From Actinopolymorpha singaporensis (GTDB lineage Bacteria > Actinomycetota > Actinomycetes > Propionibacteriales > Actinopolymorphaceae): a stretch of DNA of 64,000 bases. Shown one piece after another: positions 30,565 to 36,709 of this stretch. The stretch spans positions 5,815,981-5,879,980 of the forward strand of contig NZ_LT629732.1 of assembly GCF_900104745.1 (NCBI RefSeq), read 5' to 3'. Below the pieces are notes generated by a model. It was not told where the DNA came from. It was given only the letters and a program-made list of their open reading frames with translations, and did no database searches. The first letter of the stretch is position 1. The number at the start of each line of letters is the position of its first letter. Position numbers and translations under genes: made by a program.

Positions 30565-32248
<1,684 letters not shown>

Positions 32249-32332: not shown

Positions 32333-34078
32333 CTAGAGGTCGTCGTTCTCCCAGACCGGCGCCAGGTCGCGCGCGATCTTGATGTCGTCGTTGCTGGTGC
32401 CGGCCGCCACCATCGGCCACACCATGGCGTCGCGGTGGACCACGAAGTCGATCACCACCGGAACGTCGTTGATCGCCATCGCCTTGGCCAGCACGTCGTC
32501 GACGTCCTCGGCCTTGTCACAGCGCAGCCCCACACAGCCGTACGCCTCGGCCAGCTTGGCGAAGTCGGGGATCCGGCTGGAGTGCAGGTCGGTGTTGGAG
32601 TAGCGGCCCTCGTAGAAGAGCGTCTGCCACTGGCGGACCATGCCGAGACTGGAGTTGTTGATCACCGCGACCTTGATCGGGATGTTGTCCAGCGCGCAGG
32701 TGGCCAGCTCCTGGTTGGTCATCTGGAAGCAGCCGTCGCCGTCGATCGCCCAGACGGTGGCGTCGGGCCGGCCCGCCTTGGCACCCATCGCGGCGGGCAC
32801 GGAGAAGCCCATCGTGCCGAGTCCGCCGGAGCTGAGGAAGGTGCCGGGATTCTCGTACGAGATGAACTGTGCGGTCCACATCTGGTGCTGGCCCACGCCC
32901 GGGACGTAGATCGCCTCCGGCCCCGCGACCTGGCCGATCCGCTCGATCACCTGCTGCGGCGACAGGGAGCCGTCGTCGGGCTTGTCGTACCCCAGCGGGT
33001 AACGGGAGCGCCATTCCTCCAGCAGCCGCCACCAGCCGGTGTAGTCGCCGGCGCGGCCGGCGGCGTTCTCGGCCTGCAGCGCGACCACCAGGTCGGCGAT
33101 GACCTCCCGGCAGTCACCGACGATCGGCACGTCGGCGGTGCGGTTCTTGGAGATCTCGGCCGGGTCGATGTCCGCGTGCACGACCTTCGCCCGCGGCGCG
33201 AACGTGTCCAGCTTCCCGGTCACCCGGTCGTCGAACCGGGCGCCCAGGCTGATCAGCAGGTCGGCCTTCTGCAGCGCGCCGACCGCCGCGACGGTCCCGT
33301 GCATTCCGGGCATGCCCAGGTGCAACCTGTGGTTGTCGGGGAACGCGCCGCGCGCCATCAGCGTGGTGACCACCGGGATCCCGGTCATCTCCGCCAGCAC
33401 CCGCAGCTCCCGGGCGGCCCGGGCGCGCAGCACGCCACCGCCGACGTAGAGCACCGGGCGCCGGGCCTCGCTGATCAGCCGGGCCGCCTCACGGACCTGC
33501 TTGGCGTGCGGGCGGCTCACCGGCCGGTAGCCGGGCAGGTCGACACCTGACGGCCACTCGAACGTGGTCATCGCCTGCATCGCGTCCTTGGACACGTCGA
33601 CCAGGACCGGGCCGGGCCGGCCGGTGGAGGCGATGTGGAACGCCTCGGCGATCGTGCGCGGGATCTCCGCCGGGTCGGTGACGAGGTAGTTGTGCTTGGT
33701 GATCGGGAGCGTGATGCCCTGGATGTCGGCTTCCTGGAAGGCGTCGGTCCCGATCGAGCTGGCGGCGACCTGCCCGGTGACCGCGACCATCGGCACGGAG
33801 TCCATGTAGGCGTCGGCGATCGGGGTGACGAGGTTGGTGGCGCCGGGCCCGGAGGTCGCCATGCACACGCCGACCCTGCCGGTGGCCAGGGCGTAGCCCT
33901 CGGCGGCGTGTCCGGCGCCCTGCTCGTGGCGGACCAGCACGTGCCGGATCTTGCGGGAGTCCAGGAGCGGGTCGTACGCGGGGAGAATCGCCCCGCCGGG
34001 GATGCCGAATACCGTGTCGACGCCGGCTTCCTCCAGCGATCTGATCAGGCTCTGCGCCCCCGTCATCTGCTCACTCAT
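32333..34078 (-). CDS. ilvB: Acetolactate synthase large (catalytic) subunit
   Basis: 581 aa ThDP enzyme that makes acetolactate or acetohydroxybutyrate. Catalytic Glu in [95 protein letters not shown] and the ThDP/Mg motif [17 protein letters not shown] ending [18 protein letters not shown] precedes the ATG. Upstream are a branched-chain leader peptide and an intrinsic terminator. Confidence 0.97.
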
Positions 34079-34236
34079 GAGCGTCCTCTCGCTGTCGTGC
34101 CGGGTGTACCGCTGCTGGAACCGCCGGCGGTCCTGCCGGTGCTGCCTGTGCGCGTGGTGCGTGCTGCGGGTGGTGCTGGTGCTGCGGGTGTCGTGGTCGT
34201 GGTGGTCTGCGCCGTCAGAACAGTCTCCTGGGAAAC

Positions 34237-34269
34237 AAAAACCCCTCGGCCCGGGTGGGCAACGAGGGG
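34237..34269 (-). terminator. Attenuator terminator of ilvBNC
   Basis: On the minus strand CCCCTCG-tt-GCCC-accc-GGGC-CGAGGGG, an 11-bp stem with a 2-nt bulge, followed by TTTTTGTTT. It lies 29 nt after the leader-peptide stop and about 160 nt before ilvB. Confidence 0.88.
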
Positions 34270-34298
34270 AGCGCGCTGGCTGGAAGCTTCGAGAGCGG

Positions 34299-34340
34299 TC
34301 AGCCGGCGCGCGAGTGGAGTACGAGAATCTGCGGACGCAC
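34299..34340 (-). CDS. ilvB leader peptide ([13 protein letters not shown])
   Basis: A 13-residue frame from GTG 34340 to TGA with a contiguous Ile-Leu-Val-Leu run, the three end products of the pathway. It matches the composition of branched-chain leader peptides described in other actinobacteria (an -ILVL- core). Scarcity of any charged branched-chain tRNA would stall the ribosome here and prevent the terminator at 34237-34269 from forming. The -10-like element ends 6-7 nt before the GTG, so initiation may be leaderless. Confidence 0.8.
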
Positions 34341-34346
34341 CCATGC

Positions 34347-34376
34347 AGGTTTTCCGACCGGCCGCCTTCACGTCAA
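34347..34376 (-). promoter_or_regulatory. Candidate ilvBNC promoter
   Basis: Minus strand TTGACG (34376-34371), 18-bp spacer, AAACCT (34352-34347). The -35 overlaps the stop codon of the upstream PPOX-family gene. The -10 is weak. The predicted start coincides with the leader-peptide GTG. Confidence 0.5.
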
Positions 34377-34972
34377 GCCAAACCCTTGGCCGTCTCGACA
34401 TTTGGACGGTCCGTCCACATGTCGTCGTCGTCGAACGCGGGCAGGCCGTCGACGCTGCGCTGGTTCTTCTTCCGCCGGTAGTCACGCAGCCCCTCCTCGC
34501 CCTTGCGGTCCATGTGCGCGGGCAGCAGGTCCCGCTCCCCCACGTAGTCCATCAGGGGTACGCCGTAGCCGCAGGAGTCGGAGACCCGGGTGACGTCGAC
34601 CACGATCACCGCCCGGGCGCCGCGCCGCTCGGTGAACTGCGCGGCCAGCTCGGCGAACTCCGCGTCGTACATCGACACCACCCGGCCCCGCCCGTGCAGC
34701 CGGACGACGTTGGGCGGGCCCTCGAAGGCGCAGAACATCAGCGTGATCCTGCCGTTCTGCCGCAGGTGGGCGATCGTCTCCGACCCGCTCGCGGTGATGT
34801 CGATGTAGGCGACGGTGTGCTCGTCGAGCACCGCGAACGTCCCGCCGATGCCCTTCGGCGAGACGTTCACGTGCCCGTCGGAACCGCTCGGTGCCGTGGC
34901 TACGAAGAACACCCGCTGCGCCTCGACGAACTGCCGCAGCCGCCCGTCGATGCGTTCGTGCACCTTGCCCAT
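34373..34972 (-). CDS. Pyridoxamine 5'-phosphate oxidase-family flavin-binding protein
   Basis: 199 aa. Split-barrel flavin-binding fold: MGKVHERIDGRLRQFVEAQRVFFVATAPSGSDGHVNVSPKGIGGTFAVLDEHTVAYIDITASGSETIAHLRQNGRITLMFCAFEGPPNVVRLHGRGRVVS. The pattern VNVSPKG and RITLMFCAFEGPP is typical of the PPOX-like, F420/FMN-dependent oxidoreductase group. The C-terminal tail is Arg/Lys/Asp-rich (KGEEGLRDYRRKKNQRSVDG). Redox partner and substrate are unknown. Its 3' end contains the ilvBNC -35. Confidence 0.87.
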   Translation of the reverse strand: MGKVHERIDGRLRQFVEAQRVFFVATAPSGSDGHVNVSPKGIGGTFAVLDEHTVAYIDITASGSETIAHLRQNGRITLMFCAFEGPPNVVRLHGRGRVVSMYDAEFAELAAQFTERRGARAVIVVDVTRVSDSCGYGVPLMDYVGERDLLPAHMDRKGEEGLRDYRRKKNQRSVDGLPAFDDDDMWTDRPNVETAKGLA

Positions 34973-35032
34973 CGGGTGTTCCCCCTTCGCCGTAGGTCGT
35001 GCCGTGGAGCCGTCGGTCGTGCGGTGGGGCCG

Positions 35033-36709
35033 TCAGCCGCACACGGCGCCGTGCGCCGCGGACGTCACCAGCCGGGCGTACTTGCCGAGCACACCGCGGG
35101 TGAACGTCGGCGGCAGCGGCGTCCAGTCGGCGCGGCGCCGCTCCAGCTCGTCGGCGTCGACGAGCAGGTCGAGCGTCCGGTTGGTCATGTCCAGCCGGAC
35201 CATGTCGCCGTCGCGGATCAGCGCGATCGGGCCGCCGTCGACCGCCTCGGGCGCGACGTGGCCGACGCACAGGCCGGTCGTCCCGCCGGAGAACCGGCCG
35301 TCGGTGAGCAGCAGGACGTCCTTGCCCAGGCCCGCGCCCTTGATCGCCCCGGTGATGGCGAGCATCTCCCGCATCCCCGGCCCGCCCTTGGGGCCTTCGT
35401 ACCGGATGACCACCACGTCGCCGGCCTGGATGGTGCCGTCCTCGAGGGCGTCCAGCGCGCCGCGCTCGCGTTCGAAGACCCGGGCCGGGCCCTCGAACAC
35501 CGCCGCCTCCAGGCCCGCGCTCTTGACCACGGCGCCGTCCTCGGCCAGCGAGCCGCGCAGGATCGTCAGGCCGCCGGTGCGGTGGATCGGGTCCTTGATC
35601 GCCCGGATGATCGTGCCGTCCAGGTCGGGCGGGTCGATGTCGGCGAGGTTCTCCGCGACGGTCCTGCCCGTCACCGTCATCGGCTCACCGTGCAGCAGGC
35701 CGGCGTCGAGCAGCGCGCGCATCACCACCGGGATCCCGCCCACCCGGTCGACGTCGCTCATGACGTACCGGCCGAACGGCTTGAGGTCGCCGAGGTGCGG
35801 CACCTGGTCGCCGATCCGGTTGAAGTCGTCGAGGGTGAGGTCGACCTCGGCCTCGCGGGCGATGGCGAGCAGGTGGAGTACGGCGTTCGTGGAGCCGCCG
35901 AGCGCCATCACCACCGCGATGGCGTTCTCGAACGCCTCCTTGCTGAGGATCTGCCGGGCGGTCAGGCCGCGGCGCAGCATCTCCACCACGGCCTCGCCGG
36001 AACGCCTGGCGATGCCGTCGCGGCGCCGGTCGACTGCCGGCGGGGCGGCCGACCCGGGCAGCGCCATGCCGAGCGCCTCGGCTGCGCTGGCCATGGTGTT
36101 GGCGGTGTACATGCCGCCGCAGGCGCCCTCGCCGGGACAGATCGCCTTCTCGATCCGGTCGACCTCCTCGCGCGGGATCAGCCCCCGCGCACACGCGCCG
36201 ACCGCCTCGAACGCGTCGATGATGGTGACGTCGCGGCCGTCGACCTTGCCCGGCAGGATCGAGCCGGCGTAGACGAACACCGACGCGAGGTCGAGCCGGG
36301 CGGCGGCCATCAGCATGCCGGGCAGGCTCTTGTCGCAGCCGGCCAGCAGCACCGAGCCGTCCAGGCGTTCGGCCTCCATGACCGTCTCCACCGAGTCGGC
36401 GATGATCTCCCGGGACACCAGGGAGAAGTGCATGCCGACGTGGCCCATGGAGATGCCGTCGGACACCGAGATGGTGCCGAACTCCAGCGGGTAGCCACCG
36501 GCGGCGTGCACGCCGTCCTTGGCGGCCTTGGCCAGCCGGTCGAGGGAGAGGTTGCAGGGGGTGATCTCGTTCCACGACGAGGCGACGCCGATCTGGGGCT
36601 TCTCCCAGTCCTCGTCGCCCATCCCGACCGCGCGGAGCATGCCGCGGGCGGCTGCGCGCTCCAGCCCGTCGGTGACCTCCCGGCTGCGCGGCTTGATGTC
36701 GCTACTCAT
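35033..36709 (-). CDS. ilvD: Dihydroxy-acid dehydratase
   Basis: 558 aa. Converts dihydroxy acids to 2-keto acids for Ile and Val. Cluster cysteines appear in [30 protein letters not shown] and [86 protein letters not shown] and [27 protein letters not shown] are family hallmarks. GAGGAG lies about 11 nt before ATG. It is monocistronic; the 145-bp upstream region shows no leader peptide or terminator, unlike cimA and ilvB. Confidence 0.97.

Follow-up and report, generated by a model that had tools for sequence, protein, structure and literature searches.

Whether the gap upstream of ilvB in Actinopolymorpha singaporensis holds an attenuator through which a translating ribosome could control the operon for branched-chain amino acid synthesis, and by which RNA structure such a ribosome would act on the terminator, was the question raised by this locus. 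It was addressed in a stretch of 64,000 nucleotides (hereafter the window, whose positions are used below) from the genome of this bacterium, which is a single contig of 6.4 Mb, and by comparison with ilvB loci of other Actinomycetota.

Organization of the ilvB upstream region

On the minus strand, TTGACG, AAACCT, a leader ORF beginning with GTG, a terminator and then ilvB-ilvN-ilvC follow each other in this order, and the leader region fills the gap between a PNPOx-like gene (end at 34373) and ilvB (start at 34078). Re-reading of the sequence confirmed the coordinates and the order of leader, terminator and ilvB as given in a preliminary description of this DNA. The operon encodes the large subunit of acetolactate synthase (ilvB, 32333–34078; Pfam TPP_enzyme_N/M/C), the small subunit (ilvN, 31712–32248; Pfam ALS_ss_C and ACT_AHAS_ss) and ketol-acid reductoisomerase (ilvC, 30565–31614, start codon not settled; Pfam KARI_N and KARI_C), all on the minus strand. 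A serA-like gene is located downstream of ilvC and ilvD upstream of the PNPOx-like gene.

The leader ORF (34299–34340, minus strand) starts with GTG at 34340, predicted to be the mRNA 5′ end, stops with TGA at 34299 and encodes 13 residues, with the regulatory codons ATT CTC GTA CTC for Ile, Leu, Val and Leu at 34317–34328. It is followed at a distance of 29 nt from the stop codon by an intrinsic terminator (34237–34269, minus strand; −20.5 kcal/mol) having an 11-bp stem with a TT bulge and a five-T run; the stem reads CCCCTCG-TT-GCCC-ACCC-GGGC-CGAGGGG (34269–34242) and continues into TTTTTG (34241–34236). Both of the features by which members of this class are recognised, a short ORF with a run of Ile, Leu and Val codons upstream of ilvB and an intrinsic terminator between this leader and ilvB, were thus found. 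The bulge on the 5′ side of the stem (TT, 34261–34262 here) seemed by eye to recur in several genera, and it should weaken the stem. A simple consensus scan returned 0 promoters and 0 terminators at the locus, reflecting the limit of that scanner towards a poor −10 element and a bulged stem, and an Rfam search over 33500–35200 gave three weak matches, all under the cut-off and none within the leader.

The spacer between the terminator and ilvB (34079–34231, minus strand) is C/A-rich and T-poor (64 C, 44 G, 37 A and 8 T of 153) and contains CACCAGCACC-like repeats, which differ among the genus members; it may be a site of Rho loading or a spacer without structure. The second genomic match to the upstream region (L002) was 36 nt long and covered only CA-rich bases of this spacer. 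Elsewhere in the window, a tRNA pair, Glu(CTC) and Gln(CTG), was found at G000:C1:5828948–5829140.

The leader and terminator recur in actinobacterial ilvB loci

A set of 150 ilvB loci was assembled from the genome itself and five members of the genus, two other genera of the family, 80 named actinobacterial records (the best 80 of the matches listed) and 62 genomes of the order. The IlvB match at E up to 1e-200 was absent in 5 of 196 genomes searched in the order; of the 183 matching genomes outside the family, the 62 used (22 loci and 40 stretches) were picked by score and by hand with the aim of a spread over genera. The search required a short ORF holding three or more Ile, Leu or Val codons in a row, followed by a terminator. 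Both were present before ilvB in 140 of the 150 loci; dinucleotide shuffling, repeated five times, left 3, 3, 0, 0 and 1 of 150, and the reverse complement gave 0/150. Chance can therefore be excluded, as the same layout recurs in relatives (140/150 against 0–3/150 in shuffled sequences), and the earlier proposal of an ilvBNC attenuator with an ILVL leader is supported by this comparison. A leader was not found in seven loci (L063, L088, L102, L107, L109, L110 and L111), among which L109 and L110 had only ~30 nt of upstream sequence, too little to show a leader, and a leader-like ORF without terminator was found in three (L033, L048 and L050). The counts of structures and promoters below refer to the 140 loci, which keep near-copies such as L059 and L147 and some doubtful picks (L067, L153, L158–L160 and L163), or to the 105 left once loci with a similarity of more than 85% across 75 nt were removed.

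The leader peptide is identical in three other members of the genus (L004, L005 and L006), making four with A. singaporensis, and is recognisable in L007 and L008, and hence in all five genus relatives, the two non-identical peptides being MRPQILVPRQRAG and MRPLILVLRQRAG. In the L007 leader, MRPQILVPRQRAG, Pro takes the place of the last regulatory Leu and Ile-Leu-Val remains. Both other genera of the family (L113 and L114) also carry the leader, as MRDQILVLRERAG and MRSFLLVLRKRAG. Among 26 Streptomyces loci, 23 encode MRTRILVLG(K/Q/R)RVG, the K form of which is the published IlvL of S. lividans, two a variant and one no leader. The preliminary description had likened the core to the branched-chain leaders known in actinobacteria. 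In some short-leader variants (L034, L035, L062, L064, L100, L103 and L106), the peptide stops soon after the core (e.g. MARILVLP).

Promoter spacing points to a leaderless transcript

The −35-like TTGACG (34371–34376, minus strand), the TGA of which doubles as stop codon of the PNPOx-like gene, is followed after 18 nt by the −10-like AAACCT (34347–34352), which ends 6 nt before the GTG. TTGAC occurs 35–38 nt before the leader start in 105/140 loci, and in 132/140 a −10-like nAnnnT lies with its end 6 or 7 nt ahead of the leader start codon, as compared with 2/140 at the control offsets of 0–2 nt and 3/140 at 12–14 nt. The complete arrangement (nTGACn, 15–19 nt, nAnnnT, 5–7 nt, start codon) was present in 118/140 loci, or 84/105 after de-duplication. 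In S. lividans, the distance from the −10 element to the transcription start is reported to average 6.3 nt, and the IlvL transcript has been reported as leaderless (PMC8079986); transcription in Corynebacterium glutamicum was found to start one nucleotide from the leader start codon (PMC11857589). The recurrence of nAnnnT at 6 or 7 nt in 132/140 loci makes leaderless initiation apparently the rule for this class, and this spacing together with the reports from S. lividans and C. glutamicum makes it very likely, and ordinary, at the Actinopolymorpha leader. The earlier suggestion that the mRNA may be leaderless thus agrees with the promoter spacing and the S. lividans report. Leaderless loading, which according to that suggestion would change the kinetics of attenuation, is ordinary for these leaders across the phylum and not special to this locus. 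That translation starts elsewhere, at an out-of-frame ATG 5 nt upstream or on an mRNA that extends further 5′ and carries a ribosome-binding site, is highly improbable: the context GCATGG-GTG or GCATGA-GTG occurs in all six genus members, but the upstream ATG is missing from both other genera of the family, where the GTG frame is retained, and Shine-Dalgarno-like strings precede the leader start in only 7/105 de-duplicated loci (27/140 overall), the same test before ilvB giving only 19/105, which makes it a weak control, and the true starts of ilvB being uncertain. The leader was also predicted to fold into a 5-bp hairpin between its first five bases and bases 18–22 (34319–34340, minus strand), which would occlude the 5′ start codon; a comparable start-masking hairpin is discussed for C. 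glutamicum.

The regulatory codons are strongly biased

Codon choice in the 140 cores was compared with that in the ilvB genes of those loci that include the gene. GTA makes up 154/190 Val codons of the cores (81.1%) as against 1.7% of 5112 in the ilvB genes, and at least one GTA was found in 138/140 cores. ATT accounts for 87/113 Ile codons (77.0% against 4.0%) and CTT for 105/263 Leu codons (39.9% against 2.3%), while CTG, with 56.7% in the ilvB genes, is reduced to 7/263 (2.7%). The tRNA search of the A. singaporensis genome gave 45 matches, with one gene each for Val (GAC, CAC and TAC), Leu (CAA, TAG, TAA, CAG and GAG) and Ile (GAT), and these tRNAs are assigned to codons by the wobble rules. 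On theoretical grounds, leaders are expected to prefer codons for which charging of the isoacceptor responds most to supply, and not merely rare codons (PMC1183508), and the conservation of CUU and GUA has been noted among the closest relatives of C. glutamicum.

A covarying hairpin ends next to the terminator

The best helix near the terminator was formed between the end of the leader ORF (arm B) and the stretch that directly precedes the terminator (arm D). In the window, arm B (GCGCGCCGGCTG, 34300–34311, minus strand) takes in the end of the ORF and part of the stop codon and pairs over 11 bp with one mismatch with arm D (CAGCCAGCGCGC, 34271–34282, minus strand), which ends 1 nt before the terminator stem. 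Arm D ends 0–2 nt before the stem in 99 of the 140 loci, overlaps it in 34 and is farther away in 7. B:D pairing scored above all 20 shuffles of B in 92/140 loci, and in 93/105 B gave a higher pairing score with the D of the same locus than with those of others (mean score 24.7 against 18.2; 0/5000 permutations as good), so by sequence comparison the hairpin covaries across loci. Another helix, A:C, between the regulatory codons and the stretch past the stop codon, had been spotted by eye in some leaders and was rejected, since over the 132/140 loci in which it could be scored it was not enriched: its mean percentile was 0.43, and it exceeded all shuffles in only 6.

Arm B starts 3–7 nt past the last core codon in 111/140 loci and 8–11 nt past the first base of the last GTA in 90/105. 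Relative to the stop codon its start falls into two groups, at −13 to −10 (99 loci) and at 0 to +2 (21 loci); in the short-leader variants, arm B starts at the stop codon and is still near the core. The register of B:D thus seems to be set by the regulatory codons and not by the stop codon, because B stays near the core and is split into two groups with respect to the stop. If the ribosome is taken to shield 10 nt beyond the codon in its A site, one stalled at the last GTA would hide the first 2–5 nt of B in 90/105 loci (2 nt in the window). At the stop codon, it would extend 11 nt or more beyond the point where B begins in 104/105.

Proposed mechanism and alternatives

We assign the locus, with a probability of about 85%, to the actinobacterial IlvL type of attenuator, in which the translating ribosome controls transcription of ilvBNC. 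From the promoter spacing and the reports in relatives, transcription would start on or beside the GTG, and the ribosome would load straight onto the mRNA 5′ end, translate ATT CTC GTA CTC and stall there when Ile-, Leu- or Val-tRNA is short. A stalled ribosome would cover at most the first few bases of B, so that B:D could form, impede the adjoining terminator and leave the operon on. With ample charged tRNA, the ribosome would reach the UGA and cover B, D would be free, the terminator would form and the operon would be off. We infer this direction of control, and with it the role of B:D as the antiterminating element. Since B:D ends 1 nt before the terminator stem, it would have to act sterically or kinetically, and the same would hold for antitermination at this locus, provided that the leader is regulatory. 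The function would most likely be to switch on branched-chain amino acid synthesis when Ile, Leu and Val are short. Attenuation is supported by experiments in Mycobacterium tuberculosis, where replacement of LVVI by AAAA left reporter expression low and unresponsive to the inducer (PMC13236596), and in C. glutamicum, where mutations at the base of the terminator raised ilvB expression (PMC11857589), and by work on a C. ulcerans sequence (PMC10272879). Counting against the attenuator reading, mutations of candidate regulatory codons in S. coelicolor, for which a leader peptide and alternative RNA structures were reported, are said to have had no effect on ilvB regulation (Craster 1999, described in PMC1262725). 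Equilibrium folding of the 105 loci also counts against it, as it gave no switch (see below) and a lower mean probability of B:D when the ribosome occupies the last GTA (0.53) than for free RNA (0.75).

A textbook attenuator as in E. coli trp, with an antiterminator sharing bases with a terminator arm, follows the same general logic and is a possible but rather unlikely form of this control. The leaders of M. tuberculosis and C. glutamicum have been modelled with competing hairpins, and in 34/140 loci B:D shares 1 nt or more with the terminator stem; in ten of these the overlap is 5–8 nt, and nine of the ten have peptides with the ending ILLVLVRRAD. However, the best pairing of either terminator arm with the leader did not exceed that with shuffled leaders (mean percentile 0.44; better than all 20 in 2/140), and the trp-type feature of an antiterminator sharing bases with the terminator stem was not predicted in the window, where B:D falls 1 nt short. 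In equilibrium folding of the 105 loci, the mean probability of the terminator was 0.90 in free RNA, 0.91 with the ribosome stalled at GTA and 0.95 with the ribosome at the stop codon; it exceeded 0.5 in 99/105, 100/105 and 103/105 loci, respectively, and rose by more than 0.3 from the stalled state to the stop in only 8/105. A textbook overlapping antiterminator is therefore not visible, as the pairing between arms and leader is not enriched and the terminator is predicted in all the states.

The same folding bears on the view that B:D is a pause or anti-antiterminator hairpin that merely synchronises the polymerase with the ribosome, as the first hairpin does in trp-type leaders; we regard this as doubtful. 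B:D is transcribed ahead of the terminator and in the window takes in part of the stop codon. It was predicted to coexist with the terminator in 85/105 free and 68/105 stalled RNAs; the predicted fold of the window RNA likewise holds both hairpins simultaneously. On the other hand, no single distance after D stood out sharply for a pause-like pyrimidine-G step (at most 32/105 loci at any of 14 offsets), and a stall at the core leaves most of B free, unlike in trp, where the stalled ribosome covers the first arm.

Extended to Actinomycetota as a whole, the steric or kinetic action proposed for B:D would define an "abutting-hairpin" type of attenuator, in which the hairpin formed upon stalling sits against the terminator stem and, with no competition for its bases, blocks completion of the stem at the RNA polymerase exit, on a leaderless mRNA and with stalling tuned to isoacceptors (Val-UAC and Leu-GAG); we put this forward only tentatively.

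The leader may instead be translated without being the main sensor, a factor such as the IclR-type NdgR controlling the promoter and the terminator setting the basal level. NdgR of S. coelicolor binds at ilvB by ChIP-seq (PMC4340878), and the codon mutations without effect in that species would fit. This explanation is nevertheless improbable, given that codon choice is far from neutral, with GTA in nearly all the cores, and that the M. tuberculosis codon mutant lost induction (PMC13236596).

Comparison with known systems

The kind of element is already known, the leader, the terminator and the leaderless start having been published for relatives, and the single locus adds one more lineage to a known class. 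What the comparison adds is the strong bias of the regulatory codons and the covarying B:D hairpin at the end of the leader ORF; among the papers listed, titles and opening lines of abstracts gave no earlier account of the abutting geometry or of a phylum-wide codon bias, which is weak evidence of novelty. The comparison across the class offers a testable answer to the S. coelicolor puzzle by giving the exact hairpin, register and codon choice to mutate, and kinetic or steric antitermination may bear on this paradox.

Among the closest described systems is IlvL of the S. lividans TK24 ilvBHC operon (MRTRILVLGKRVG). It likewise has 13 residues, ILVL occupies the same place in the peptide, hairpins and a U-rich stretch come between the leader and ilvB, and its transcript is reported as leaderless (PMC8079986). 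The Actinopolymorpha leader differs from it in having HSRAG in place of GKRVG, from the Streptomyces loci compared in starting with GTG and not ATG, and from the 25 Streptomyces loci with a leader in its distance of 29 nt, against 39–56 nt, from stop codon to terminator. The candidate ilvB leaders of Corynebacterium, Mycobacterium and Streptomyces described by Seliverstov et al. (2005) are similar in having a run of Ile, Leu and Val codons and a poly-U terminator; the part of their genome list that was compared contains no genome of this family, and the mode of regulation was called unclear and left open there (PMC1262725). The M. tuberculosis ilvB1 leader (LVVI), set beside this locus by description only, resembles it in having a uORF with GUA, a terminator and, by experiment, codon-dependent induction, and differs in the order of its core. 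The Corynebacterium ilvB-II motif and the C. glutamicum ilvBNC attenuator share with it a branched-chain uORF and a hairpin before the terminator, and in C. glutamicum the transcription start also adjoins the uORF start codon (PMC11857589). The antiterminator and terminator of C. glutamicum have a GCC trinucleotide in common, whereas in A. singaporensis B:D stops 1 nt short of the stem.
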